Source of the DNA: Argopecten irradians
Lineage: Eukaryota; Mollusca; Bivalvia; Pectinida; Pectinidae
Direction of reading: 5' to 3'
NCBI RefSeq assembly: GCF_041381155.1
Contig: NC_091137.1
Coordinates: 16,425,765-16,489,764, forward strand
DNA: 64,000 nt
Shown here: piece after piece, positions 8,015 to 51,000 of the stretch
Layout: the number at the start of each line of letters is the position of its first letter
Position numbering within the stretch: the first letter of the stretch is position 1
Made by a program: the position numbers and the translations under genes
The notes under the pieces: model-generated
What the model was told of the DNA's origin: nothing
Databases searched by the model: none
The model's input: only the letters and a program-made list of their open reading frames with translations

Positions 8015-11000
8015 ATGTCTTTCACCTGGACAACAGTAGAACGAGATAGCCCTGGTACACAGGGCGGTAAACGAACAAAAATGTCACATCCAATCACGAG
8101 CTGGGACATCAATGATACACTGGCCGCAGATTTTGATGGCTCCCTCTCAGGGCTTGGTACAGAACTGGGGACAGGGACATATAATATGAGGTAAATATCA
8201 TACCTAGTTTCTCTCGAGTTTCCCCACCTCACATCATTCATCATCTTTATATGTATTGTGTAAAGATAATTTGACTTGGGGCTTGTTCTACAGTCGTCAA
8301 TAAACACAGTTGCTTCTGTTACTTGCCTTAAAATAAGGGTATGAAATGTAGCCAGACAATAAGGCCATACAAATATATCAGCCAGCCCTCTCTGTAGGTA
8401 TTTTGAATTACTTTGGGAAAAGTAGGAATTAATAGCATGAGTCTCCCACTGAAAAATTGACATGAAAATTTTGTTTTATAAAAAATGTTTCATCAAAGAA
8501 TTGACTATTGAGAACCATGATACAATTATTTTATTTGTCTTCAGTGAAGCCCTGCTGGCACTTCCTGTCTTCAAACAAGAAAATCTGGACAATGGGTATG
8601 AAAATTTAAAACATTCATCAAATACTCTGTAAATTAGTAAAATGGCAGTAAACTCTCTTTGCTTGTCAAGATTAAACAAAATGGAAGAATCATATTTCTG
8701 GTTGTGAAATTGTTAAATGTTAAGTTAAATTGAAGAACAAAGCAGCACAGCTAGTAAAACCTGTGTCAGTGACCACCTGCTATGAAGAGCATTTTCCTCT
8801 CTCCCTTGGGTTGTCTTTATAGAAAGGTTTGACTGTATTTTCAGTCTTTTTGTACTTAGTAAAAAGTAAAATGAACATACCATATTGATTGATGTGTTAG
8901 ATATATATGATGAAGATGATAATTTTGTATAATTCTAGATTCCAGTACATCCTTGGGGCGGCCACCTCTCCAGCAGTTAAGATTAACGAGGAAACACTCA
9001 CTTACCTTAATCAAGGTGAGGTTATTTAGTATTTTATTCATTACACGTTACATGATTAAACAAATCACAAAAATATTGATTGATGTATGGTTACCATTTT
9101 TATAATATGAATAGATATTGAATCTACATTCTTATCAAAGACATTGTGTAATGTTGTATGAAATGTGATTCTGATTTATATCAGGGCATCCAATAGACCC
9201 TTAAGAGTATGTTTTTGACTCTCAGAAATCAGATTTGTCTCTTTGAGTATGAAGCATGTGTCTATTTGTCATATGTTTTGACTCTTCAGATTTCTGAGAA
9301 ATGGTGATTTGACTCCTGACTCTGCTAAGGGTCAACTTTATGTACTGTACATCATTGTATATATATCAATCTGATTAAAACACCATTACTATTTAGCAAA
9401 CTCTGTTCTAAACGAGTTTGGTATGGCTTACAATCAATTTAGAATATCAAAATATGCTAGAAAAGGGGATTTAGGGGTAATTTGATGCATTTCCATGTAG
9501 AAGTCGTAACGATAACCACGTTTAATCTGCGAGCGAATGATGTTTGTCCTTGAATGTTTGAAAAAACGGCAAATTCTGTAAGAAATTTATTAACAGCCGA
9601 TGAATCTTGAATACATTTAACGTACTTTAGACGGTATTAATAATTAATAAGTTATTCTCCAGGTGACCTTTGGATATGGCCATTCAAATTGCTGCCTGCA
9701 AATTTTGACAGTGAATTTCAGGGGACGGAATAGTTTAAAAACTGTCTAAATTATTTTCTTGTACGTAATCATCTCGCCCAAAGGCACAACAAAGCTAACT
9801 GTATATGTATACTGGGACGAAATGCCGTTATCAATTGACGTATCAAGGGGTAGAAATGTATTTTATCTGAAGTACACGTGGTATAAAATTGTGTCCCTTG
9901 TGTACTGATTGTTTCCTCTTATGTACGAATTAGTTGTCTCAGTTGTCTTCCCTTGCGTGTTTATTGGTTGTTTGTCTCCTTTTGTGTACATATGGATTAT
10001 TTCCCCTGTAGGTCAATCCTATGAGATCAAGTTGAAGAAGCTAGGCGACTTGTCTGACATGCAAGGAAAATGTCTCCGGGTAAGTACTTATACATGTGTA
10101 TTTGATGTAAAATGTAGCAAAATATTGTCAGGTTGTTTTTTTCTGGATTCAATGCTGTCGTTAAACTGTGATCAGTATAATAACTTTCAACCTGAGTAAT
10201 GTGTAAACAAAAAGTGCAATCACAAAGAAATTAGCAACATAGATTATGCTTAAAAAGAAATAGGATGATGACAGTATATCATATGCTTTTGGAGGAAAGG
10301 TAAATCTAATTATACTTGACAAAAATTAGTCATTTCCCTCGCCTGATACTACTGGTGTATTTTGATTAAATGTTGTTGTTTAATTATCTTGTGAAATATT
10401 TTGCATTTGTAGAGTGTTGTAAAAGTTTGTTTTCATGAACGTCGTCTTCAATACATGGAGAAGGAACAGTTGGAATCCTGGAAACAGATACGGCCTGGAG
10501 AACGAATCATGGATATAGGTAGTTAAGTTAATCTAAGCTACAGTATTTGAGTTTTGAGTAACGAAATTGGCTATAGCCAAGTGTAATAGGAGTTTCTGTA
10601 GAGTAAGCATCTCTTATTAGTGTTAAAACTGTTAGAAATATTTTTATATCAGTGCTGTTGATAGACAGTTAATTTGATTTTATCATTATTCTAAACACTT
10701 TATGTTGCAAATCAGCAAGTTTTTTTTTGTAGCAGTCTTTCACACTATGATTTCTGTTCAGTGTTAGCCTCTATATCAATCACAAGGAAACAGAAAAATA
10801 CTGAAGAAGACACTCTCACATTGACACAGGCATACTAACAGAAGACATTCTCACATTTACACAGGCATACTTACAGAAGACATTCTCACATTTACACAGG
10901 CATACTAACAGGAGACATTCTCACATTTACACAGACATGCTAACAGAAGACATTCTCACATTTACACAGGCATACTAACAGAAGACATTCTCACATTTAC

Positions 11001-14000
11001 ACAGGCATACTAACAGAAGACATTCTCACATTTACACAGGCATACTAACAGAAGACATTCTCACATTTACACAGGTATACTAACAGAAGACATTCTCACA
11101 TTTACACAGGCATACTAACAGAAGACATTCTCACATTTACACAGGCATACTAACAGAAGCCATTCTCACATTTACACAGGCATGCTAACAAAAGACACTC
11201 TCACATTTTTACAGGCATGCTAACATAAGACATTCTCACATTTACACAGGCATGCTAACAAAAGACACTCTCACATTTTCACGGGCATGCTAACAGAAGA
11301 CATTCTCACATTTACACAGGCATACTAACAGAAGACATTCCACATTTACACAGGCATGCTAACAGAAGACATTCTCACATTTACACAGGTATACTAACAG
11401 AAGACACTCTCACATTTACACAGGTATACTAACAGAAGACATTCTCACATTTACACAAGCATACTAACAGAAAACATTCTCACATTTACACAAGCATACT
11501 AACAGAAAACATTCTCACATTTACACAGGCATGCTAACAGAAAACATTCTCACATTTACACAGGTATACTAACAGAAAACATTCTCACATTTACACAGGC
11601 ATACTAACAGAAGACACTCTCACATTTACACAGGTATACTAACAGAAAACATTCTCACATTTACACAAGCATACTAACAGAAAACATTCTCACATTTACA
11701 CAGGCATGCTAACAGAAAACATTCTCACATTTACACAGGTATACTAACAGAAAACATTCTCACATTTACACAGGTATACTAACAGAAAACATTCTCATAT
11801 TTACACAGGCATACTAACAGAAGACTTACCCACATTTACACAGACATACTAACAGAAGACATATTCACATTTACAAACATGCTAACAGAAGAAACTCTCA
11901 CATTTACACAGGCATACTAACAGAAGACATGCTCACATTTACACAGACATGCTAACAGAAGACATACACTGCCCTCCAAAAGTTCTGTTACAACTCTCTT
12001 AATTCTGTATAAAATCATTTTTGACAAAATTATTGGGGATAGAATTTTTTTTGTCATTTGTTTTAAATGACGTAAAGGGGGATAATGTTACTTTGGTGTT
12101 TTAACACAAATTTTTTTCCTAATAAAGTCCTAAAACAGGTTTTTATTAATAATTCAATTATTTCATATTTCATATAGACCTATCAAATGCCTAAGAATAG
12201 TAAAACAAACTCACATATGGACAGTATTTCCATGGAAATTTAATTTTAAATGACAAAATTAATCACTGCTCACCATGTGTCATCTTTTTTGTTATTCTTA
12301 AAGTATGATTTAATTATGAAAAATTTCATGTAACAAAATGCAGCGATTATCTAGAGAAGACCGTTTCCAGTGTGTTTTTTACCATCGCAACGGTGTACCG
12401 GCGGCACAAACTGTAAGGATACTTGGAACTAGCAGGTAAGTGATCATAGTTTACCTTGAAACCTTTGATGATTTTGCAATTCATTATTTGGTATGCAGTT
12501 TAAAGTTTGACCATTTCTCTTTTGTTACAGACAGAACGTGCACAGGGCTATTAAAAGATTCCAAGATACGGGTAACTATGAGGATCGGGAACGTTCTGGT
12601 CGGCCACGTATTTCTACGGATCGGTATTACAGATTGCTAGTCCGGGCCAGTCTAAGAAATCGTAGGGAGACCGTTCCTGAACTTCGAACTGAATGGATCC
12701 AAACTGGTGTTGTGGCATCCAATACAACAGTGAGGAGAAGATTACACAATTCAGGGTTAAAGGGTTGTGTTGCTGCCAAAAAACCACTCTTAACAGTTAC
12801 TCATCGTCAGAAGAGGTTGGCATTTGCACAGAATAACGCAAATTGGACCCGGGTGGACTGGTCAACAGTTCTATGGACTGATGAGTCGAGATTCACTCTC
12901 TTCCAAACAGATGGCAGAACGTATGTGAGAAGATGAGTGAATGAACATTACATCACGAGTGTGTAGTGCCTACAGTTAAGTTTGGTGGGGGTGGTGTGAC
13001 GGTTTGGGACGCTATGTCTTTCCGAGGGACTGGATATATTCCTCCTTTGAAAGGAAATCTCAACGGAATAAAGTACATTGACATTTTAGAGAACAGTGCA
13101 ATACCATCAGCACATCTGCTAGGCTACGGCAATAACTTTTTCTTCCAGAATGATGGTGCCCCATGCCACAGAGCCCGTATAGTAACTGAATGGAAGGATG
13201 AAAACAGTATTCAGTCTTTGGAATGGCCCCCACAATCCCCTGACCTGAACCCAATTGAAAACCTGTGGAAAGATCTTGGTATGGAAGTCCACAAGCACAA
13301 GTGCGGAAACCTTGGGGAACTGGAAGCTGCATTGAAGCTAGCATGCGATGAGATACCTGCTAGAAGATGTAGAACATTGATCAGAAGTATGCCTGACCGC
13401 ATACAGGCAGTACTTAGAGCACGTGGAGGATATACCAAATATTAACAGAATAACAAGATTTTTGATTTTTAACAAATATTCCAATTTCATTGCAATACAT
13501 GAACTCAGGGCTATTGCATTATCATGAAAAATTGTATTTGGACAATAAAATATTCATGTGATAACTAAATGAATATTGAAACTTTTTTTTTTAAAATTTA
13601 TCTATAAAAAATGCATGTGTAACAGAACTTTTGGAGGGCAGTGTATTCGCATTTACAAACATGCTAACAGAAGAAATTCTCACATTTACACAGGCATACT
13701 AACAGAAGACATTCTCACATTTACACAGACATGCTAACGGAAGACACTCTCATATTCACACAGACATGCTAATAGAACAAATTCTCACATTTACACAGGC
13801 ATACTAACAGAAGACATTTCACATTTACACAGGCATACTAACAGAAGACTTTCTCACATTTACACAGGCATACTAACAGATGACACTCTCACATTTACAC
13901 AGGTATACTAACAGAAGACATTCTCACATTTACACAGGCATACTAACAGAAGACTATCTCACATTTACACAGGTATACTAACAGAAGACTTTCTCACATT

Positions 14001-17000
14001 TACACAGCCATGCTAACAGAAGACATTCTCACATTTACATAGGCATACTAACAGAAGACATCTCATACGTTTACGCCGGCATGCTAACAGAAGCCATTCT
14101 CACATTTACACAGGCGTACTAACAGAAGACATTCTTTCATTTACACAGGCATGCTAACAGAAGACATCTCATACATTTACACAGACGTACTGAAGACATT
14201 CTCACATTTACACAGCCATGCTAACAGAAAGACATTCTCACATTTACACAGGCATACTAACAGAAGACATCTCATACATTTACACAGGCATGCTAACAGA
14301 AGACATTCTCACATTTACACAGGTATACTAACAGAAGACACTCTCACATTTACACAGGCATGCTAACAGAAGACATCTCATACATTTACACAGACATACT
14401 AACAGATGACATTCTCACATTTACACAGACATGCTAACAGAAGACATTCTCACATTTACACAGGCATGCTAACAGAAAACATTTTCATATTAAACACAGA
14501 CATTCTAACAGAAGACACTCTCACAGTTACACAGGTATACTCACTGAAGCCATTCTCACATTTACACAGACATGCTAACAGAAGACATTCTCACATTTAC
14601 ACAGGTATACTAACAGAAGACATTCTCACATTTACACAGGTATACTAACAGAAGACATTCTCACATTTACACAGGCATACTAACAGAAGACATTCTCACA
14701 TTTACACAAGCATACTAACAGAAGACATTCTCACATTTACACAGGTATACTAACAGAAGTCATTCTCACATTTACACAGGTATACTAACAGAAGACATTC
14801 TCACATTTACACAGACATGCTAACAGAAGACATTCTCACATTTACACAGGTATACTAACAGAAGACATTCTCACATTTACACAGGTATACTAACAGAAGA
14901 CATTCTCACATTTACACAGGCATGCTAACAGAAGACATTCTCACATTTACACAGGTATACTTACAGAAGACATTCTCACATTTACACAGGTATACTAACA
15001 GAAGACATTCTCACATTTACACAGGCATGCTAACAGAAGACATTCTCACATTTACACAGGTATACTAACAGAAGACATTCCCACATTTACACAGACATGC
15101 TAACAGAAGACATTCTCACATTTACACAGGTATACTAACAGAAGACATTCTCACATTTACACAGGCATGCTAACAGAAGACATTCTCACATTTACACAGG
15201 TATACTAACAGAAGACATTCTCACATTTACACAGGTATACTAACAGAAGACATTCTCACATTTACACAGGCATGCTAACAGAAGACATTCTCACATTTAC
15301 ACAGGCATACTAACAGAAGACATTCTCACATTTACACAGGTATACTAACAGAAGACATTCTCACATTTACACAGACATACTAACAGAAGACATTCTCACA
15401 TTTACACATGCATACTAACAGAAGACATTCTCACATTTACACAGGTATACTAACAGAAGACATTCTCACATTTACACAGGTATACTAACAGAAGACATTC
15501 TCACATTTACACAGACATGCTAACAGAAGACATTCTCACATTTACACAGGTATACTAACAGAAGACATTCTCACATTTACACAGACATGCTAACAGAAGA
15601 CATTCTCACATTTACACATGCATGCTAACAGAAGACATTCTCACATTTACACAGGTATACTAACAGAAGACATTCTCACATTTACACAGGCATACTAACA
15701 GAAGACATTCCACATTTACACAGGCATACTAACAGAAGACATTCTCATATTTACACAGGCATGCTAACAGAAGCCATTCTCACATTTACACAGGCATACT
15801 AACAGAAGACATTCTCACATTTACACAGGCATACTAACAGAAGACACTCTCACATTTACACAAGCATACTAACAGAAGACACTCTCACATTTACACAGGT
15901 ATACTAACAGAAGACATTCTCACATTTACACAGGCATACTAACAGAAGACATTCTCACATTTACACAGGCATACTAACAGAAGACATTCTCACATTTACA
16001 CAGACATACTACATACATAGTTGGGAATCTTTATCTGTATATTTGGTTTCATTGGTTTGATGTCCTATTAACAGTCAGGGTCATTTAAGTTGAGGGCTTG
16101 TGACACTATTTCAGGACATCCTAACCACTTGGCTACTGTGAACTTAATATACAATGTAGCTGTGTAACTAAAGGATATTAAATGTATAGACATTTCACCA
16201 CATTTCATTTGTGTGGTATTATATTTTACATTTTTTGTTATAAGATATCCCCCTGTCCTATGGCCTGATGGAAGTGAACTTGGACTGTATGGAGCCTGGC
16301 CTTATGGACAGTGCCCAGAGCACTGCCCGTCTCAACGGAGCAGAGGTGGTATGGGATCCTACAAAGGAAGCGGGGGTGTACATCCGTGTGAATTGTATTA
16401 GTACAGAGTTCACAGCCAAGAAACACGGAGGGGAGAAGGGAGTACCGTTCAGAGTCCAAGTGGAGACCTATGCCAAGGACGATGACAATAAACTGTTACA
16501 CTGCGCATCGTGTCAAGTCAAGGTCTTTAAGGTATAAACAGTTACATTTCTCCCCAGCTGTCAATCACACTGCCCACCTACCGTACATTTCTTTGCATTT
16601 TGTATTGTTTGTCCCACAACCTCTGCTCTGACATTGAATGGGTACATTTGTGTGTGCGAGCATAAAAAGTGGTTACGTACTTTTCGGTCGATCGGTTAGT
16701 TACATGATCCGTGTAAAGTTTATTCTATTTCTTCTGGAATAAAGCTCATTGTGTATATAAAACAGTTCACCATGTAATAAAGACTTTAGATTGAAAAGAT
16801 ACAATCCAATAATGTTAATTCAATATTGTACCTGATCTACATCATTACAATTTACAGCCAAAAGGTGCTGACAGAAAACACAAACGAGACAGAGAGAAGA
16901 TGGAAAAAATGTCCGAAATAGAAAAGGTGAGTAATGCTGTTTGTTACATATTCTTTTCTTTGCCATTTAACAATTGATTGAAATATATTTTTTATATAAT

Positions 17001-20000: not shown

Positions 20001-23000
20001 TATTAGTGATAAACAGGGACTTCATATCATATATACCAGGTATTATAACATATAATTAATTTGCAGTCAAATAAGAGTATTCCATTGAATTACTGTCGTG
20101 CTACTTTTAATTATTTTCTCTCCTCCAGGGGGCGCTCTCTGCCGAGGCAACAGCCAATCAAGTGACTGCTTGGCTACAAGCTAACAGATTTTTCAACTAC
20201 AGCCGTGTATTCCAAAACTTTTCAGGTAATACTCTGAGACTACTTTGTATTACATTACTGACACTTTACTCTAAAGTTCTTCATGCTGAACAAGAGTGTC
20301 TGATGTATATCAGTTTTTGTTCATGTAAACATTCTTCTGTTGTTGCCACCTGGTTTACATTTGAGATTTTGATATGGCACAATTTTTTGGGAAGGGGAGT
20401 ATACTGAAATTACCTTGTCTGGATGTGTGCAGCTGTCCTGTCTGTCATCTACCAATTTTAACCGAACAACTCTTAAACCTGTGAACCGTAGACAGAAATG
20501 TTATAAACCATGTGTAAATGTTTAAGGTTTTGTTGCCATGGTAACCAGCAGGTCACTAGACACAGACTTTGTGAAGTGGTCAATAACTCATTCGTCCAGT
20601 GTGTCATTGATGAAACACAGAGTGTGTCCGTTTACTTTTTCAGGATTCACTGTACTAATCTACAATTTGTTTGTAGTCTGTATTTTTTATTTTTGTTTGT
20701 CTGTTCCTTCAAAAATCTATGTTTATATATATATATATATATTCATTATTGATTTTAATCTCAAAAATGAATTGTGTTTGTTAAAGGGGCTGACATTTTA
20801 CGGCTATCTCGGGATGATCTAATTCAAATTTGCGGGATTGTTGATGGAATCCGGCTAAATAACGCATTACAAGACAAGTAAGTAGCACAATTTACATGAA
20901 TGTGATGAAATAATAAAAACTGTTAAAATCTTAATTGAAAAATAATAACAAGTATATGAATATTTATACCATATATAAAGCTAATCCTATATTTATGAGT
21001 GTTGTTTTTAAATTCCAGAGCTGTCCGACCAAGATTGACTATATTTGTATGCCAAGAAAGTGATTCAGGTAAATACAGAATATTGCTATAATTGAAGTAG
21101 AAAAGATATCTATATGATCATTTAATCATGACATAATTATTTGATGTCTTTATTGCACTTTTATATACAAATACTTATAGGTAGGACTCCCAAGATAAAA
21201 TCTCTGTTTTGCCTTCAGTTGTATCATGTATTGTAAATCGTGTTTTAAACAATGTTCAATTTGAACTTCTTAATCATTATTATTACCTGGTAATAGGCAT
21301 AGAGCATGTTAAGGTGAAGGCTTGTAACTTTATGCTGAGATTTAGGACTATTTGCTTTGTTTATTAAATATGTAATCCTGACCTTCATCTAAGGTCATGA
21401 AAAACAAGGTTATTAATATGTTTTAAACAACTTTTTCTATATAAAGATATTCAGTGACTATTTGTTAAAGGGACAATTCAGTGAGGCTAATTTCTGTTAC
21501 ATAACCACGAAGCAAAATATGACATAAATAGATTGTTCTACATTTCTTATGAAACATACATTGCAACAAGAAATATTGACAAATTTCATGACATTATTAA
21601 GTATTTTGATTGATACCGTTGTAATTCCAAATCGTTGATCAATACGATTAAGCATGTACAATGTGTACTCTTTACCCATACCCAAGCCAAAGTCATGCAC
21701 GTTAAACAAATTCAATACATAACCGCTGAGGAGTTGAAATTATTTTTTAGACAAGAACAAGCATTTAATAAGGTAAACACACTACTGTAAGAGCGATATG
21801 AGTTGCTCTAGACAAAAATTCTTTACCACACTGACAAGGGCCAGTGTTCGGCATACTAGACATCCGACCACTATGTGTAATGGCGGACAGTAAGTGGTTT
21901 GAACTATAGTGGGCTTTTCTGGCATATCACAGTAAAATCAACTAATCTAACTTCCATAAGAACCGGTTTGTTTCTGATGTATGTGCAAATTTTTATGTAC
22001 TGGTGTACTCTTAGACTGAATTGTCCCTTTAACATTGTATCATGTGTGGATGATAAGATATCCTATTTGTTCAAATCTATGACCTTAAACTACAAGCCAG
22101 TCATATGCTAAACTTAAATGACTTTTTTTTCAATTGATGGTTCACCAGTTGTCAATAATCACCCGGGTACTGCATGTGACTTTGCATTTTGTATAATGTA
22201 TGCTCATACATTTGCTCTGACATTGAATGGGTACATATGAAGCCTGGTGTGAGCATGAGGCCTGGCTATCTATTGGTCAATTACAATGAAGCCCAAAGAC
22301 CTGATAGGGATGAAGAGGTTCTATATATATGTTTCTTGGAATGAATGTTCTTGACCTTTATTGAAGTTCACAGGGTTCAAATATGTCAAAACTTCAAACA
22401 AGTTCTTCTCAACAACCAAGAGATATCATATCATATTAGCATGATTTTATATACAACAAAAACGCAATCAACAGTTTACCTGTTTATTACTAAAGTGAAC
22501 ATAAATTTTGGCGATCAGGGGCTACTCACTCAATACATAGCTATATACATAACATACTCTTACATAACTAAAATAATAAATAGAGAAGAGGCTTGACCCT
22601 GTCGAAACTTTAGAGAAGCGACTTGACTCTAAATATAGAACTACATAAAGAAGAAGCTTGACCCTGCCGAACTTCAGGGAAGCAACTTGACTTTACGTAT
22701 AAAAGAGATGGCTAAGCATATATAGAGAAGAAGCTTGACTCCCCAGAAGTGTGAAGAAGCAACTTGACTCTAGTGTTAGCGTAAAAGAAGACATGAGAAA
22801 AAGTTTGACTCTGTACTAGGAGCCAGAGAAACTTCTTGACTCAAAGTATTCTTGAAAATATAATGTATGTGTAACTGATTTATTGGGGGTAAAAATTCCC
22901 CTGGAATTAAAAGCCAGGGAATTAAAATTAAAAAACTAATGTATAAGTTACCAAATATTAAAAGCTGGAACTAAACCATAAACGCCTAAAGAGTGAGTAG

Positions 23001-26000
23001 CCCATAACAAAAAGAAAATACAGACAGTAATGAACATGAGATAAACATAAGACAGAAAATGGAATCCATAAAAAGTACAATGGTGACGCAGGGGATGGTG
23101 GGTGGGTGCTTAGAAAAAATGACAGCCACCTCCTACGTGGAACACTGCCTCAAGCTATGGTCAATAACGGTGACCCCCTCTAGGGGATAATCCTGATTGG
23201 TCAGTCGCAACCCCTAAACTACTCATTAGCATAATCTATACATAGTACTGTAACATTTGCATACATGATAAGAATAATACAGTCACTTACATAAATCAGT
23301 CTAAAAATTTCAAAAACCTTTAATAAAACAAACAAACAACAAAAATATAAACTTAATTAATCCATATAATATATAAAGTTAATTCCAGAGCAAAGGGAAA
23401 TAACTGTTGTATACAAACTGTAATTTAACATTTAACATGTCAAATTATCATTTTATATACAACTAAAACGCAAAAATTGAACTCTGGTGACTGTTAAGAT
23501 CCATGTGTCTTTTGTTTTGTGCTTGGTGTACCATGAAGTAGTGATAATCTTATTTTCTTGTTCAGTGTACCATGAAGTAGTGATAATCTTATTTTCTTGT
23601 TCAATGTACCATGAAGTAGTGATGATCTTATTTTCTTGTTTAGTGTACCATGAAGTAGTGATAATCTTATGTTCTTGTTTAGTGTACCATGAAGTAGTGA
23701 TAATCTTATTTTCTTGTTCAGTGTACCATGAAGTAGTGATAATCTTATTTTCTTGTTCACTGTGCCATGAAGTAGTGATAATCTTATTTTCTTGTTCAGT
23801 GTACCATGAAGTAGTGATAATCTTATTTTCTTTTACAGTGTGGCATGAAGTAGTGATAATCTTATGTTTTTGTTCAGTGTACCATGAAGTAGTGATAATC
23901 TTATGTTTTTGTTTAGTGTACCATGAAGTAGTGATAATCTTATTTTCTTGTTCAGTGTGCCATGAAGTAGTGATAATCTTATTTTCTTGTTCAGTGTGCC
24001 ATGAAGTAGTGATAATCTTATTTTCTTGTTCAGTGTACCATGAAGTAGTGATAATCTTATGTTCTTGTTCAGTGTACCATGAAGTAGTGATGATCTTATG
24101 TTTTTGTTTAGTGTACCATGAAGTAGTGATAATCTTATGTTCTTGTTCAGTGTACCATGAAGTAGTGATAATCTTATTTTCTTGTTCAATGTACCATGAA
24201 GTAGTGATGATCTTATTTTCTTGTTTAGTGTACCATGAAGTAGTGATAATCTTATTTTCTTGTTCAGTGTACCATGAAGAGGTGATAATCTTATTTTCTT
24301 GTTCAGTGTACCATGAAGTAGTGATAATCTTATGTTCTTGTTCACTGTACCATGAAGTAGTGATAATCTTATGTTCTTGTTATTGTACCATGAAGTAGTG
24401 ATGATCTTATGTTTTTGTTCAGTGTACCATGAAGTAGTGATAATCTTATGTTCTTGTTCACTGTACCATGAAGAAGTGATGATCTTATGTTTTTGTTTAG
24501 TGTACCATGAAGTAGTGATGATCTTATGTTCTTGTTCATTGTGCCATGAAGTAGTGATAATCTTATGTTCTTGTTCAGTGTACCATGAAGTAGTGATAAT
24601 CTTATTTTCTTGTTCAGTGTACCATGAAGTAGTGATAATCTTATGTTCTTGTTCACTGTACCATGAAGTAGTGATAATCTTATGTTCTTGTTATTGTACC
24701 ATGAAGTAGTGATGATCTTATGTTTTTGTTCAGTGTACCATGAAGTAGTGATAATCTTATGTTCTTGTTCACTGTACCATGAAGTAGTGATAATCTTATG
24801 TTCTTGTTTAGTGTACCATGAAGTAGTGATGATCTTATGTTCTTGTTTAGTGTACCATGAAGTAGTGATAATCTTATTTTCTTGTTCAGTGTGCCATGAA
24901 GTAGTGATAATCTTATGTTCTTGTTCAGTGTACCATGAAGTAGTGATGATCTTATGTCCTTTTTCAGTGTACCATGAAGTAGTGATGATCTTATGTTCTT
25001 GTTCAGTGTACCATGAAGTAGTGATAATCTTATTTTCTTGTTCAGTGTGCCATGAAGTAGTGATAATCTTATGTTTTTGTTCAGTGTACCATGAAGTAGT
25101 GATAATCTTATGTTTTTGTTTAGTGTACCATGAAGTAGTGATAATCTTATTTTCTTGTTCAGTGTGCCATGAAGTAGTGATAATCTAATGTTCTTGTTCA
25201 GTGTACCATGAAGTAGTGATGATCTTATGTTCTTGTTCAGTGTACCATGAAGTAGTGATGATCTTATGTTCTTGTTCAGTGTACCATGAAGTAGTGATAA
25301 TCTTATTTTCTTGTTCAGTGTACCATGAAGTAGTGATGATCTTATGTTCTTGTTCAGTGTACCATGAAGTAGTGATGATCTTATGTTTTTGTTTAGTGTA
25401 CCATGAAGTAGTGATAATCTTATTTTCTTGTTCAGTGTACCATGAAGTAGTGATGATCTTATTTTCTTGTTCAGTGTGCCATGATGTAGTGATAATCTTA
25501 TTTTCTTGTTAAGTGTACCATGAAGTAGTGATGATCTTATGTTTTTGTTTAGTGTACCATGAAGTAGTGATGATCTTATGTTCTTGTTCAGTGTACCATG
25601 AAGTAGTGATGATCTTATGTTCTTGTTCAGTGTGCCATGAAGTAGTGATAATCTTATTTTCTTGTTAAGTGTACCATGAAGTAGTGATGATCTTATGTTT
25701 TTGTTTAGTGTACCATGAAGTAGTGATGATCTTATGTTTTTGTTCAGTGTACCATGAAGTAGTGATAATCTTATTTTCTTGTTTAGTGTACCATGAAGTA
25801 GTGATGATCTTATTTTCTTGTTCAGTGTACCATGAAGTAGTGATAATCTTATGTTCTTGTTCAGTGTACCATGAAGTAGTGATGATCTTATTTTCTTGTT
25901 AAGTGTACCATGAAGTAGTGATAATCTTATGTTCTTGTTCAATGTACCATGAAGTAGTGATGATCTTATTTTCTTGTTCAGTGTACCACGCCCTCTACAT

Positions 26001-27423
26001 GGAGAGTCTCTGTAGCCATGAATTGACTTGTAAATTGGCAGCACTATACAGTGTGGGGCCAGAGCAAATAGCTGAACTTTACTGCCAGGGTCCATCCGAG
26101 ATTTACATCCTGGTAACGGACGAGGTAGGTTCTTCTCTATACTCTGTAGTCTGATATGACATTATACCACTGTGAAAACCAGATTGCAACTAGCTTGGCC
26201 TTGCTGTACTTAATGCTACAATAATACTGAAAAACAGATATACAACTCTATCGGTCTTGCTGTTTATACATTTCAATATAAATTTGGCCAATGTGTCATA
26301 GAAATTATAAAATCAGAAACACTAAATCTAGTCTAAGGATATACAGATATTTTGTATTTAAATTCACATACCGTACTCTTATGTATGTGATATTTTGTGC
26401 CTTAAATTAGTATAATGCAACTCTGTTCAAGTTGATATTTATGCCAATTTTGTCCTGTACTATGTTTGATTTATTGTATTTTCAGGTTGTGGGGAATTTG
26501 GTAGATCAGTCAAGATTTTGTGTTGAAGCTATCAAATGTAAGTGTTATACTATGAAACATGGTGTTAGGAGCATTGTTTACTGGAAACACTCGGTTTGTC
26601 TGGTGTCCACTAATCTTGTCTCGACAATTTCTCCTTAACTACTGAATCAATTTAATGAAACTTTACACTTATGTTTGGAGCCATGTGTAGATAATTTTTA
26701 TTCTATAGAAAATTTTTGAAGCCATGTGATGGAAACCAGGTCAGTATACATATATAGGCTTTAGATATGGCCAATGTAACTTGTTAGTCTTTGTTGATTT
26801 TGTTCAAATTGGTAATCACATGGTTTAAACACCAGGTATTTGTTACCATGGAAACAAAACAGAGACTTCTGATTGGTTACGATTTATATATTGTCTGATT
26901 AAACTTAAAATTACTATTATTAGGGATTTTGAAGGATGACAAAAATGTCATTTTGGTTGCCATGGTTACCAGAAAAAATGTCAAAAGTAATACTGTATAA
27001 ATAAAATTTGAGTATTGGTCATTGCCATGGTCTTCATGGAGGATTACCCAGGATTAATATTAGTTAACCATAAGCTTACAGTTCTATTGTTGAAAATAAA
27101 ATTCAGTAATGTAAGGCATTTCTTTATAGAAAAATCATCAAACATGAGTCTGCCAAGCTGCAAGAGATATCTGAACCGTAGTCAAAGATAAGTGTGATCA
27201 GTACTTGTCAAGCATTGTGCTGACCTGCCAGAAATTTGTGCTCTGATTGAGATATATGTATCTACTTTAGAGACCCTTCACAGAATCAGCCTGTGATTGT
27301 AGATATATGTCACATTGGATGTGATAGCTTTTATCTCACTGCCTTTGTTCCTAATTCTTCTCATTCTTCGTTTCAGCCGACACCTCAAACCAATACAAAG
27401 TTTTACTGAAGACAATAATGTGA
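8015..27423 (+). CDS. TFCP2: CP2/LSF-family transcription factor (TFCP2/UBP1 type), 16 coding exons, complete
   Basis: Sequence-specific nuclear transcription factor of the LSF branch of the grainyhead/CP2 family, DNA-binding as an oligomer. Coding exons: 8015-8190, 8545-8595, 8939-9015, 10012-10079, 10413-10518, 16245-16531, 16858-16926, 18652-18693, 18960-19063, 19559-19724, 20129-20225, 20787-20877, 21019-21068, 25982-26124, 26486-26537 and 27377-27423. They total 1626 nt (541 aa plus TGA), with every phase agreeing. Residues 30-75 hold the LSF N-terminal motif ([21 protein letters not shown]). Residues about 76-292 are the CP2 DNA-binding domain ([54 protein letters not shown]). Residues about 390-445 are the SAM-like domain ([20 protein letters not shown]). 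Residues about 447-541 are the ubiquitin-like oligomerisation domain ([19 protein letters not shown]). The ATG at 8015 is the first in its exon; a second in-frame ATG lies at 8081. Invertebrates usually have one LSF-type gene, so the symbol stands for the whole subfamily. Introns 5 and 13 carry large minisatellites. Confidence 0.93.
8753..8837. repeat. Short mariner-type MITE (AGTAAAACCTG ends)
   Basis: In TFCP2 intron 2. Begins AGTAAAACCTGTGTCAGTGACC and ends AAAGGTTTGACTGTA, matching the ends of the longer copy at 40794-40967. This is a widespread animal repeat type. Confidence 0.5.
9196..9345. repeat. Small imperfect foldback in TFCP2 intron 3
   Basis: GACCCTTAAGAG at the left pairs with CTGCTAAGGGTC at the right, and the inner segments around CAGAAATCAGATTT and AGATTTCTGAGAAA are also inverted. 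About 150 bp; MITE remnant by inference. Confidence 0.4.
11967..13643 (+). mobile_element. Tc1/mariner-family DNA transposon, 1677 bp
   Basis: Perfect 26-bp terminal inverted repeats (left end CACTGCCCTCC, right end GGAGGGCAGTG) flanked by the TA target duplication (11965-11966 and 13644-13645). It is inserted in one unit of the 35-bp minisatellite: the flanks join to GAAGACATATTC, a variant unit also seen intact near 11855. It holds one transposase gene on the plus strand. Identical TIRs with a broken transposase suggest a fairly recent insertion, possibly moved in trans; the timing is inference. Confidence 0.97.
12338..13445 (+). pseudogene. Tc1-type transposase, spliced, broken by a stop and a frameshift
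   Basis: Cut-and-paste transposase. Exon 1 (12338-12435) starts [19 protein letters not shown], a homeodomain-like HTH start. A 95-bp GT-AG intron (12436-12530) is required because the frame hits TAA directly after the donor. Exon 2 continues with [18 protein letters not shown], the usual Tc1 linker. The catalytic triad is visible: D in WTDESRF, D in FQNDGAPCH and E in NPIENLW, the last two spaced as DD34E. The copy is broken: an in-frame TGA at 12934-12936 and, about 15 bases on, loss of one base before the segment leading to [11 protein letters not shown]. After this the frame runs to a normal Tc1 C-terminus (RGGYTKY) and TAA. The full reading would be near 340 aa, the usual family size. 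Confidence 0.93.
16553..16670. repeat. Dispersed repeat, copy 1 (TFCP2 intron 6)
   Basis: Shares with 22146-22262 the blocks TTTGCATTTTGTAT and GCTCTGACATTGAATGGGTA in the same order and orientation. No termini recognised; family unknown. Confidence 0.55.
17069..18130 (+). mobile_element. Non-autonomous element with 161-bp tandem units (bivalve pearl/HINE-like)
   Basis: Opens with a hairpin (TATCCCCCG and CGGGGGATA) and closes with GCGGGGGAT near 18098. In between, GTTATGGCCCTTT recurs near 17251, 17412, 17573, 17734 and 17834, i.e. at 161-bp steps with one short unit. Each unit also has GCAATAACTGTAAC, TTTTCTTCAAACT and AAATGCCTTAAG. A core of about 160-bp tandem units is known from oyster pearl elements, which are non-autonomous Helentron relatives; placing this copy there is inference. 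It lies in TFCP2 intron 7. Confidence 0.6.
21465..22032. mobile_element. TTAA-flanked MITE, 568 bp
   Basis: Bounded by TTAA at both ends, with inverted termini TTAAAGGGACAATTCAGT and ACTGAATTGTCCCTTTAA. No coding capacity. The TTAA target is typical of piggyBac-type elements, but the termini lack a clear CCC start, so the superfamily is uncertain. It lies in TFCP2 intron 13. Confidence 0.75.
22146..22262. repeat. Dispersed repeat, copy 2 (TFCP2 intron 13)
   Basis: Matches 16553-16670 (shared GCTCTGACATTGAATGGGTA). Lies just beyond the TTAA MITE. Confidence 0.55.
22444..23474. mobile_element. Unclassified element with internal inverted repeat and a 70-bp-spaced motif
   Basis: Near-identical direct repeats of about 24 bp (ATTTTATATACAAC, then AAAACGCAA) lie at 22444 and 23450. 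Inside, GGGGCTACTCACTC (22518-22531) is inverted at 22991-23003. Between those are four copies of an AGAAGCTTGACYCTG motif, each followed by GAAGCAACTTGACT, spaced roughly 70 bp (near 22584, 22651, 22724, 22795). No open frame of note. It abuts the 39-bp array. Confidence 0.4.
23526..25981 (+). repeat. 39-bp minisatellite made from the exon-14 splice acceptor of TFCP2
   Basis: About 63 units ending directly at the first base of TFCP2 exon 14. The unit is TGTACCATGAAGTAGTGA, then TAATCTTA, then TTTTCTTGTTCAG. The last part is the polypyrimidine tract and AG used by exon 14 itself (real junction ttgttcag|TGTACCACG at 25981/25982), and the first 7 bases equal the start of exon 14. Unit variants end TTCAG, TTTAG, TTAAG, TTCAC or TTATT. 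Because 39 is a multiple of 3, most of the array is open in the exon-14 phase ([13 protein letters not shown] repeated) and also on the opposite strand. A block around 24378 recurs at 24690, a copy step of 8 units. Confidence 0.95.
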
Positions 27424-45000: not shown

Positions 45001-48000
45001 ACTCCCCAGACAACACTATAGGAGAACTGTTCCCGGGGGAAAGGGCCATAATAGATTTAGTACGTCATATGACATTTATTTTGACGTCATATATTTGGTC
45101 GCATGCTCATTCCCGGGGGAATATACTTTGGTATAGTTCCCTTAGTCGGGTATAGTCTCCCGTAGTCAGGAAGGACAGGAAACTCGCAAAATATACCATG
45201 GCTGTTATCGAATCAAATTCCTAGTAATTATCATGTGATGTACAAAACTTTGGTATAGTTCCCGTAGTCAGGTATAGTCTCCCATAGTCAAGAAGGACAG
45301 GGAACTGTAGCAAAATGGACCATAGCTGTTATCCAATCGCAATCCCAGTAATCATCATGTGATGTACTAAACAGGAATAGTATACAGGAATCACAGATAT
45401 GGTATACAGGTACCACAGGTATGGTATACAGGTACCACAGGTATGGTATACAGGTACCACAGGTATAGTATACAGGTACCACAGGTATGGTATACAGGTA
45501 CCACAGGTATGGTATACAGGTACCACAGGTATGGTATACAGGTACCACAGGTATGGTATACAGGTAACACAGGTATAGTATACAGGTAACACAGGTATAG
45601 TATACAGGTACCACAGGTATGGTATACAGGTACCACAGGTATAGTATACAGGTACACAGGTATATATACAGGTACCACAGGTATAGTATACAGGTACACA
45701 GGGTACAGGTACACAGGTATAGTATACAGGTACCACAGGTATAGTATACAGGTACCACAGGTATAGTATACAGGTACCACAGGTATAGTATACAGGTACA
45801 CAGGTATAGTATACAGGTACCACAGGTATAGTATACAGGTACCACAGGTATAGTATACAGGTACCACAGGTATGTATACAGGTACCACAGGTATAGTATA
45901 CAGGTACCACAGGTATAGTATACAGGTACCACAGGTATAGTATACAGTACAGGTATACAGACCACAGGTATAGTATACAGTACCACAGTAGTATACAGGT
46001 ACCACAGGTATAGTATACAGGTACCACAGGTATAGTAGTATACAGGTAACCACAGGTATAGTATACAGGTACCACAGGTATAGTATACAGGTACCACAGG
46101 TATAGTATACAGGTACCACAGGTATAGTATACAGGTACCACAGGTATAGTATACAGGTACACAAGGTACCACAGGTATAGTATACAGGTACCACAGTATA
46201 GTATAGTACCAGGTACCACAGGTAAGGATATACAGGTACCACAGGTATAGTACATACACAGGTATAGTATACAGGTACCACAGGTATAGTATACAGGTAA
46301 CACAGGTATAGTATACAGGTACCACAGGTATAGTATACAGGTACCACAGGTATAGTATACAGGTACCACAGGTATAGTATACAGGTACCACAGGTATAGT
46401 ATACAGGTACCACAGGTATAGTATACAGGTACCACAGGTATGGTATACAGGTACAGGTAACACAGGTATAGTATACAGGTACCACAGGTATAGTATACAG
46501 GTACCACAGGTATAGTATACAGGTACCACAGGTATAGTATACAGGTAACACAGGTATAGTATACAGGTACCACAGGTATAGTATACAGGTACCACAGGTA
46601 TAGTATACAGGTACCACAGGTATGGTATACAGGTACCACAGGTATGGTATACAGGTACCACAGGTATAGTATACAGGTACCACAGGTATAGTATACAGGT
46701 ACCACAGGTATAGTATACAGGTACCACAGGTATAGTATACAGGTACCACAGGTATAGTATACAGGTACCACAGGTATAGTATACAGGTACCACAGGTATA
46801 GTATACAGGTACCACAGGTATAGTATACAGGTACCACAGGTATAGTATACAGGTACCACAGGTATAGTATACAGGTACCACAGGTATAGTATACAGGTAA
46901 CACAGGTATAGTATACAGGTACCACAGGTATAGTATACAGGTACCACAGGTATAGTATACAGGTACCACAGGTATTACGGTACACGGTAAGTATAAGGTA
47001 CCACAGGTATAGTATACAGGTACCACAGGTATAGTATACAGGTACCACAGGTATAGTATACAGGCACAGGTATAGTATACAGGTACACAGGTATAGTATA
47101 CAGGTACCACAGGTATAGTATACAGGTACCACAGGTATAGTATACAGGTACCACAGGTATAGTATACAGGTACCACAGGTATAGTATACAGGTACCACAG
47201 GTATAGTATACAGGTACCACAGGTATAGTATACAGGTACCACAGGTATAGTATACAGGTACCACAGGTATAGTATACAGGTACCACAGGTATAGTATACA
47301 GGTACCACAGGTATAGTATACAGGTACACAGGTATAGTATACAGGTACCACAGGTATAGTATACAGGTACCACAGGTATAGTATACAGGTACCACAGGTA
47401 TAGTATACAGGTACCACAGGTATAGTATACAGGTACCACAGGTATAGTATACAGGTACCACAGGTATAGTATACAGGTACCACAGGTATAGTATACAGGT
47501 ACCACAGGTATAGTATACAGGTACCACAGGTATAGTATACAGGTACCACAGGTATAGTATACAGGTACCACAGGTATAGTATACAGGTACCACAGGTATA
47601 GTATACAGGTACCACAGGTATATATACAGGTACCACAGGTATAGTATACAGGTACCACAGGTATAGTATACAGGTACCACAGGTATAGTATACAGGTACA
47701 CAGGTATGGTATACAGGTACCACAGGTATAGTATACAGGTACCACAGGTATAGTATACAGGTACCACAGGTATAGTATACAGGTACCACAGGTATAGTAT
47801 ACAGGTACCACAGGTATAGTATACAGGTACCACAGGTATAGTATACAGGTACCACAGGTATGGTATACAGGTACCACAGGTATAGTATACAGGTACCACA
47901 GGTATAGTATACAGGTACCACAGGTATAGTATACAGGTACCACAGGTATAGTATACAGGTACCACAGGTATAGTATACAGGTACCACAGGTATAGTATAC

Positions 48001-51000
48001 AGGTACCACAGGTATAGTATACAGGTACCACAGGTATAGTATACAGGTACCACAGGTATAGTATACAGGTACCACAGGTATAGTATACAGGTACCACAGG
48101 TATAGTATACAGGTACCACAGGTATAGTATACAGGTACCACAGGTATAGTATACAGGTACCACAGGTATAGTATACAGGTACCACAGGTATAGTATACAG
48201 GTACCACAGGTATAGTATACAGGTACACAGGTATAGTATACAGGTACCACAGGTATAGTATACAGGTACCACAGGTATAGGTATACAGGTAACACAGGTA
48301 TAGTATACAGGTACCACAGGTATAGTATACAGGTACCACAGGTATAGTATACAGGTACCACAGGTATAGTATACAGGTACCACAGGTATAGTATACAGGT
48401 ACCACAGGTATAGTATACAGGTACCACAGGTATAGTATACAGGTAACACAGGTATAGTATACAGGTACCACAGGTATAGTATACAGGTACCACAGGTATA
48501 GTATACAGGTACCACAGGTATAGTATACAGGTACCACAGGTATAGTATACAGGTACCACAGGTATAGTATACAGGTAGCAAAGGTATGGTATACAGGTAC
48601 CACAGGTATAGTATACAGGTACCACAGGTATAGTATACAGGTACCACAGGTATAGTATACAGGTACCACAGGTATAGTATACAGGTACCACCAGGTATAG
48701 TATACAGGTACCACAGGTATAGTACACAGGTATATATACAGGTACCACAGGTATAGTATACAGGTACCACAGGTATAGTATACAGGTACCACAGGTATAG
48801 TATACAGGTACCACAGGTATAGTATACAGGTACCACAGGTATAGTATACAGGTACCACAGGTATAGTATACAGGTACCACAGGTATAGTATACAGGTACC
48901 ACAGGTATAGTATACAGGTACCACAGGTATAGTATACAGGTACCACAGGTATAGTATACAGGTACCACAGGTATAGTATACAGGTACCACAGGTATAGTA
49001 TACAGGTACCACAGGTATGGTATACAGGTACCACAGGTATAGTATACAGGTACCACAGGTATAGTATACAGGTACCACAGGTATAGTATACAGGTACCAC
49101 AGGTATAGTATACAGGTACCACAGGTATAGTATACAGGTACCACAGGTATAGTATACAGGTACCACAGGTATAGTATACAGGTACCACAGGTATAGTATA
49201 CAGGTACCACAGGTATAGTATACAGGTACCACAGGTATAGTATACAGGTACCACAGGTATAGTATACAGGTACCACAGGTATAGTATACAGGTACCACAG
49301 GTATAGTATACAGGTACCACAGGTATAGTATATACAGGTACCACAGGTATAGTATACAGGTACCACAGGTATAGTATACAGGTACCACAGGTATAGTATA
49401 CAGGTACCACAGGTAAGTATACAGGTACCACAGGTATGGTATACAGGTACACAGGTATAGTATACAGGTACCACAGGTATGGTATACAGGTACCACAGGT
49501 ATAGTATACAGGTAACACAGGTATAGTATACAGGTACCACAGGTATAGTATACAGGTACCACAGGTATAGTATACAGGTACCACAGGTATAGTATACAGG
49601 TACCACAGGTATAGTATATACAGGTACCACAGGTATGGTATACAGGTACCACAGGTATAGTATACAGGTACCACAGGTATGGTATACAGGTACCACAGGT
49701 ATAGTATACAGGTACCACAGGTATAGTATACAGGTACCACAGGTATAGTATACAGGTACCACAGGTATAGTATACAGGTACCACAGGTATAGTATACAGG
49801 TACAAGTATAGTATACAGGTACCACAGGTATAGTATACAGTACACAGTAGGTACCACAGGTATAGTATACAGGTACCACAGGTATAGTATACAGGTACCA
49901 CAGGTATAGTATACAGGTACCACAGGTATAGTATACAGGTACCACAGGTATAGTATACAGGTACCACAGGTATAGTATACAGGTACCACAGGTATGTTAG
50001 GTATACAGGGTACCACAGGTATAGTATACAGGTACCACAGGTATAGTATACAGGTACCACAGGTATAGTATACAGGTACCACAGGTATAGTATACAGGTA
50101 CCACAGGTATGGTATACAGGTACCACAGGTATAGTATACAGGTACCACAGGTATAGTATACAGGTACCACAGGTATAGTATACAGGTACCACAGGTATAG
50201 TATACAGGTACCACAGGTATGGTATACAGGTACCACAGGTATAGTATACAGGTACCACAGGTATAGTATACAGGTACCACAGGTATAGTATACAGGTACC
50301 ACAGGTATAGTATACAGGTACCACAGGTATAGTATACAGGTACCACAGGTATAGTATACAGGTACCACAGGTATAGTATACAGGTACCACAGGTATAGTA
50401 TACAGGTACCACAGGTATAGTATACAGGTACCACAGTATAGTATACAGGTACACAGGTATAGTATACAGGTACCACAGGTATAGTATACAGGTACACAGG
50501 TATAGTATACAGGTACCACAGGTATACAGGTACCACAGGTATAGTATACAGGTACCACAGGTATAGTATACAGGTACCACAGGTATAGTATACAGGTACC
50601 ACAGGTATAGTATACAGGTACCACAGGTATAGTATACAGGTACCACAGGTATAGTATACAGGTACCACAGGTATAGTATACAGGTACCACAGGTATAGTA
50701 TACAGGTACCACAGGTATAGTATACAGGTACCACAGGTATAGTATACAGGTACCACAGGTATAGTATACAGGTACCACAGGTATAGTATACAGGTACCAC
50801 AGGTATAGTATACAGGTACCACAGGTATAGTATACAGTACACAGGTATAGTATACAGGTAACTACAAGGTATAGTATACAGGTACCACAGGTATAGTATA
50901 CAGGTACCACAGGTATAGTATACAGGTACCACAGGTATAGTATACAGGTACCACAGGTATAGTATACAGGTACCACAGTATAGTATACAGGTACCACAGG

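Follow-up and report, generated by a model that had tools for sequence, protein, structure and literature searches.

A tandem array of acceptor-like units across a 3' splice junction of a TFCP2-like gene in Argopecten irradians, and a possible preference of minisatellites for splice junctions

The window analyzed here, a stretch of 64,000 nucleotides from contig NC_091137.1 of Argopecten irradians, carries on its plus strand a gene of the CP2 family (TFCP2/UBP1-like), and one intron of this gene ends in a tandem array of 39-bp units that reaches into the following coding exon. Our analysis indicates that this array is probably a mirage-type, mostly neutral minisatellite that was born across the 3' splice junction of the TFCP2-like gene. 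Array boundaries, period and copy number were determined with Tandem Repeats Finder (TRF), and the units were then listed one by one. TRF placed the array at 23526-25988 with a period of 39, 63.2 copies, 93% matches and 0% indels, which confirms the train of tandem acceptors that a preliminary description of this DNA had noted before a coding exon. The array fills the final 2.46 kb of a 4.9-kb intron and stops 7 bases into the exon, and its final copy crosses the acceptor TTTTCTTGTTCAG and continues into TGTACCA, the opening 7 bases of exon 25982-26124, as had been proposed for the composition of the unit. Read from the acceptor G, the unit is GTGTACCATGAAGTAGTGATAATCTTAT(G/T)TTCTTGTTCA, and mean pairwise identity among the 39-bp units is 0.93. 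The exact 20-mer word formed by acceptor and exon bases occurs 11 times in the genome, every time inside the 39-bp array.

Some 18 nt upstream of the AG, each unit also contains a TRAY motif (TAAT or TGAT), by consensus a putative branch point, and the tract at the unit junctions is rich in pyrimidines (fraction 0.73-0.87). The 64 junctions, the true one counted, comprise 52 with AG (36 CAG, 13 TAG and 3 AAG) and 12 without. At 11 of the 62 internal junctions the AG is missing, and its G varies in 9 of the 61 units that have the full 39 bp. The junction at the left edge of the array reads TGG, leaving the first unit without an acceptor. With an acceptor weight matrix, a score of 8.7 was obtained for the true acceptor, which is equalled or beaten by 18 of the 63 decoys, while 34 of the 63 lie within 2 bits; seven further acceptors of the same gene scored from 2.9 to 13.9. 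Judged by these signals, every unit resembles a full 3' splice module, and dozens of them are predicted to be about as strong as the real acceptor. The earlier description as in-phase copies of a splice acceptor holds for 61 of the 63 units with regard to length and for 52 of the 64 junctions with regard to AG, but not for the two units of 38 bp (beginning at 24345 and 24656), both of which shift the reading frame, nor for the junctions without AG. As in mirage minisatellites, a tandem repeat of minisatellite size has a unit that spans an exon-intron boundary, exon bases included, and splice signals are present in many units.

The consensus unit amounts to 13 codons and is open solely in the exon-phase frame; residue 10 is F rather than C in 27 of 61 units. 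The upstream exon, ending GAT TCA G, joins the downstream exon in frame (PF25416, 1.5e-20), which agrees with what had been described. Such an open frame is commonplace, being found for a given frame in 0.37 of unit shuffles and in 0.41 of intron 39-mers, and 6 of the 16 arrays of a genome sample described below have periods divisible by 3. Stepping upstream from the exon, the junctions are CAA at 25943 (score -3.6), AAG at 25904 (4.1), CAG at 25865 (7.3) and CAG at 25826 (8.7). An isoform longer by one unit (+13 amino acids) has no usable AG because 25943 is CAA, so that the expected in-frame addition of 13-residue modules was not borne out; the sole stop-free extension with an AG would start from the AAG at 25904 and add 78 nt, or 26 amino acids. 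The unit beginning at 25864 ends in TTAAG and therefore brings an in-frame TAA at 25900-25902, so that acceptor choice at 25865 or farther upstream would add a stop codon and, as anticipated, read-through is limited to two units. By the usual rule, a premature stop of this kind would trigger nonsense-mediated decay. Distinct variants among the units number 1 synonymous, 13 missense and 3 stop (of 26, 82 and 9 possible, respectively), giving no sign of coding constraint. A complete lack of stop-free YAG decoys arises in 15% of shuffled unit orders (P = 0.15) and in 12 of 63 rotations; the deficit is not significant, and therefore it demonstrates neither upkeep nor purging of decoys.

The 8-bp word GTGTACCA is present at both edges of the array, its right copy consisting of the last intron base and the first 7 exon bases. 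Minisatellites can arise by slippage between short direct repeats, and we infer that the two copies are the trace expected after slippage between 8-bp direct repeats on either side of a single seed. In this scenario the seed would have been duplicated through slippage, or through unequal exchange, involving both GTGTACCA copies, and would then have expanded on the intron side while the exon retained one copy. The real acceptor, nearest to the exon and to the exon's donor, would normally be picked through exon definition, and the decoys would be ignored or would yield transcripts with the premature TAA that decay. The 60 bp to the left of the array have no added likeness to the unit (P = 0.87). 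Some points speak against this account. Birth from GTGTACCA is deduced from the present-day edges, and the use of splice sites is a prediction from the sequence. The 60 bp to the right of the array hold TGTAGCCATGAA, which weakly resembles TGTACCATGAA of the unit (P = 0.023); this likeness inside the exon is unexplained and was taken for chance. Moreover, the weak state of the two exon-adjacent junctions (P = 0.048, post hoc) could reflect selection against decoys, i.e. decoy use. As a reading in its own right, selection purging the near decoys was set aside, its support being this single post hoc value.

Besides the neutral minisatellite, we considered a damper of expression, in which the decoys would be partly used, the mRNA carrying the TAA would decay and array length would tune the TFCP2 level by unproductive splicing. 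The CAG decoys at 25865 and 25826, 117 and 156 nt upstream of the true site, are near or equal to it in score and both lead to the TAA. However, published mirages are reported to leave regular splicing intact (PMC3087553), and the decoy AGs give no sign of upkeep, given the loss at internal junctions, so that we judge a damper unlikely. Less probable still is a length-polymorphic splicing rheostat with upstream copies as alternative acceptors for in-frame 13-residue modules, as the preliminary description had suggested: the unit of 13 codons is open in exon phase, many decoys score level with the true acceptor and the junction precedes a conserved domain segment, where vertebrate proteins have, according to that description, a variable loop, but the +1 junction lacks AG, the +2 junction is AAG, all units farther away, every YAG decoy among them, lead through an in-frame TAA, and coding constraint among the units is not seen. 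The alternative put forward there, decoys that the gene tolerates, accounts better for the observations and agrees with the published mirage minisatellites. Finally, the array was rejected as coding sequence, as the frame shifts at both 38-bp units, four in-frame stops follow the second of them, and neither a frame open throughout nor coding constraint was found.

Mirage minisatellites were first described in amphioxus, in Adh3 and in the globin genes BflGb6 and BflGb9; there, their units reportedly carry splice signals, their length is unstable and reverse transcription-PCR suggested normal splicing to the authors (PMC3087553). In BflGb6, as here, the unit joins the 3' end of an intron to the 5' part of an exon, but two BflGb6 haplotypes have 3 and 6 units of 150-160 bp where the present array has 63 of 39 bp. 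The Adh3 units measure 10-72 bp, and the scallop array belongs to another animal and another gene than these mirages. Unlike the amphioxus mirages, the present array is known from the sequence of one assembly. Human internal tandem repeats in segmental duplications are likewise minisatellites at exon-intron boundaries that are able to alter splicing or to create introns (PMC2812944); these human cases concern recent paralogs, units of about 30 bp in about 4 copies and transcripts that support the new introns, whereas the scallop array has 63 units, resides in a gene without a second TFCP2-like match and was studied as DNA. In NAGNAG-type tandem acceptors the spacing is a few bases, and both sites are used. 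The present array shares with them several acceptors before one exon but has a 39-bp spacing and candidate sites only. No such arrays in molluscs were reported in the titles and abstract openings that searches of an open-access literature collection listed. Dozens of near-identical complete acceptors within one intron offer a construct-free test of what decides between equal sites in splicing, be it nearness to the exon, the first AG or exon definition.

A whole-genome profile search with PF04516 gave, among the best candidates, three matches, two of them in the window and one on contig C6; among the candidates scored, the gene has no second TFCP2-like match, and the one on C6 is the single CP2 match on another contig. 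The joined exons match Pfam family PF25416 (GRHL1_C) at the value given above, and exon 25982-26124 alone at 2.6e-9. A comparison of the C-terminal domain with solved structures yielded no sequence relatives, the best hits being two antibody chains (E 0.3 and 0.63).

Further arrays in the genome share the build of the window array, for example L027 6980-8457 and L032 3025-3283 in the table below. It may or may not be, with about equal chances, that the minisatellites of this genome preferentially start or expand on splice junctions, mainly 5' splice sites, with decoy trains at hundreds of exons or more, and transcription or splicing may promote the duplications. This proposal draws on motif counts together with 16 arrays of a grid sample and 8 myosin stretches; of its four sub-tests, those on the myosin set and on the window are not significant. 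The other reading, that dense minisatellites must touch some exon borders and have no preference for junctions, is quite possible, if somewhat short of an even chance. If the tendency is true, tandem duplication would be concentrated at splice junctions. This would bear directly on the model in which introns arise by tandem duplication and on the annotation of repeats at exon edges, and the genome would offer a natural system in which to study intron gain and the choice among near-identical sites. A genome-wide excess of minisatellites at splice junctions was not reported in the same titles and abstract openings.

The grid sample consisted of 20 stretches of 10 kb (200 kb) at round coordinates on contigs C1-C6, fixed before inspection, and arrays with at least 5 copies and a period of 15-120 were counted. 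The resulting 16 arrays cover 26 kb, 13% of the sequence, or about 80 per Mb (bootstrap 30-140), a density that favors chance contacts; chance placement alone would give about 30-350 arrays genome-wide that end 1-10 nt inside an exon if 100,000-250,000 acceptors are assumed. The edges of all 16 were read by eye, one array being cut by the stretch end. One array that resembles coding zinc fingers was excluded, and 6 of the other 15 appeared to be seeded on a splice junction, two of them less clearly. For three of these six arrays the exon is supported by a Pfam match (DEAD 0.00098, Transket_pyr 0.0004, PDZ_6 0.00016, all under the curated cut-offs); no match was obtained for the exons of the other three. 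Assuming 0.6 splice sites per kb, 0.5 junction arrays are expected (P = 1.5e-5 for at least 6 and 0.0018 for at least 4); assuming 2 per kb, P becomes 0.0075 and 0.089, respectively. The array at L016, with a DEAD-helicase-like exon end plus 5' splice site in 86 copies over 8.4 kb, is longer than the 39-bp array of the window and of donor type.

The automatic test relied on an exon finder whose training set comprised 1,851 myosin codons; it recovers 33 of 41 known matches of that set and predicted 49 exons in the grid sample. An edge was scored if it fell inside an array or at most 8 bp away, with at least 30 bp of exon outside. Observed arrays were tested at full length and the null over one unit, which follows the seed model and is biased toward long arrays. 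In the grid, an exon edge was found at 4 of 16 arrays (L016, L021, L023 8301 and L027 6980), L021 solely via the 8-bp margin, and L027 408 was missed. With one-unit seeds placed anywhere in the sample 0.52 are expected and none of 400 draws reached 4; with seeds in the same 10-kb stretch 1.02 are expected (P = 0.015). At a threshold of at least 3 copies the count was 5 of 23 against 1.23 expected (P = 0.0075), the fifth (L022 2747-2872) being a call of the finder only. These grid results argue against chance placement, whereas the same test was not significant for the myosin set (2 of 10 observed; 1.01 expected, P = 0.27, and 1.25 expected, P = 0.34) or the window (1 of 7 observed; 0.34 expected, P = 0.29, and 0.36 expected, P = 0.31). 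The finder missed two myosin cases that are clear by eye and found the weak one.

Also against chance placement, donor strength of the consensus unit exceeded that of same-locus segments in the grid (Fisher P = 0.017, 16 arrays) and the myosin set (0.017, 9), the value for the window being 0.062 (7). Acceptor strength gave P = 0.64, 0.79 and 0.024, respectively; it is not raised in grid and myosin, and therefore the excess is one of donors, whereas the window array is of the acceptor type. The whole genome was searched for three copies of the donor motif CAGGTAAGT at gaps of 11-41 bp, with the reversed motif as control. Triples numbered 2,659 versus 73 and singles 19,404 versus 5,409, i.e. 13.7% versus 1.35%. 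A second control, CAGCTAAGT, had 527 triple hits and its reversed form 90; among the matches listed, the former had no place on C1-C3 (about 220 Mb), all lying in one array on C4. Hits accumulate in long arrays, so that raw hit counts are unsafe and places are to be compared. The reversed CAGGTAAGT control occupies 14 separate places in the genome, and the donor triple, among the matches listed, 4 places in the first 6.47 Mb of C1, extrapolated to about 520 if uniform (143-1,340). Per single motif this is about 10-fold over the reversed control (Fisher P = 0.001, with one control and with singles within the 6.47-Mb stretch estimated from the mean). The count of places likewise speaks against chance placement. 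However, since donors, unlike most occurrences of the control motifs, are found within genes, a higher density of arrays there could account for part of the motif excess; the same-stretch null of the exon-edge test guards better against this effect than the motif counts.

The myosin set, 8 stretches with a total of 62.4 kb, was derived from PF00063 matches and picked for exons rather than arrays. Three junction arrays are clear by eye and one is weaker; the acceptor array at L032 has the same build as the window array. No array of period at least 15 was found in L034 and L039, and no clear junction array was seen in L036, L037 and L038.

Features of the window and junction arrays elsewhere in the genome (L-numbers denote sampled genome stretches; coordinates after them are within that stretch)
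Feature	Position	Strand	Basis
Tandem array of period 39 bp; 63 units, two of them 38 bp long, and a partial copy of 8 bp	23526..25988	+	TRF, unit list
Left copy of 8-bp direct repeat GTGTACCA, putative slippage seed	23526..23533	+	sequence
Right copy of GTGTACCA, spanning the junction (one intron base, seven exon bases)	25981..25988	+	sequence
In-frame TAA reached from acceptor 25865 or any farther upstream	25900..25902	+	junction table
Two exon-adjacent units, AAG junction at 25902/25904 border, CAA junction at 25943 without AG	25903..25981	+	junction table, scores 4.1 and -3.6
Upstream coding exon, 50 bp, end GAT TCA G, donor GTAAAT	21019..21068	+	exon scan, PF25416
Downstream coding exon, 143 bp, VYHALYMES...ILVTDE, true acceptor CAG (8.7)	25982..26124	+	exon scan, PF25416, acceptor matrix
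Next exon	26486..26537	+	exon scan; within joined protein matching PF25416
97 bp x 86, exon end plus donor	L016 1412-9790		by eye; lag comparison plain
110 bp x 5.3, donor	L023 8301-8885		by eye; lag comparison once small indels allowed
29 bp x 21, donor	L027 408-1021		by eye; lag comparison plain
54 bp x 27, acceptor plus 11 exon bases	L027 6980-8457		by eye; lag comparison plain
Donor, less clear	L021 1986-2368		by eye; weak in lag comparison
Donor, less clear	L023 4152-7683		by eye; weak in lag comparison
43 bp x 6, acceptor with the opening 7 exon bases, build as in window array	L032 3025-3283		by eye
37 bp x 10.7, donor	L033 703-1099		by eye
63 bp x 4, donor, ...FFVRHIFKLEQ GTAATG	L035 3260-3512		by eye
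42 bp x 3.6, donor, 67% matches, weaker	L032 4811-4961		by eye

Two other observations were made in the myosin stretches. At L037 4642-4818, degenerate 34-bp repeats stand right behind a myosin donor (...GGTCACATCAGTAATTACTTATTAGAAAAA / GTGAGTAGAT); they resemble exon end plus donor and are possibly an old, decayed junction array. At L033 3303-3545, a 118-bp duplication with 99% identity lies over the start of a myosin exon, and an AG precedes each copy in equal phase; the second copy could be the exon start, with the first falling into the intron, and the duplication either arose very recently or is an artefact of the assembly.

The window contains further arrays. An 8-kb array of 22/44-bp period (ACAGGTATAGTATACAGGTACC) at 45371-53399 is rich in CAGGTA, and a coding exon was seen at neither of its edges. 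A 35-bp array (10798-11965 and 13660-16011), with TACTAAC, ACACAGG and TTTACACAGG in its unit, does not qualify as a junction array, as its end at 16011 sits about 230 bp short of the next exon. It is interrupted at about 11986-13645 by a candidate mobile element, presumably of the Tc1/mariner type, with open reading frames at 12511-12933 and 12945-13442 and with ends formed by CACTGCCCTCCAAAAGTTCTGTTAC and its reverse complement.
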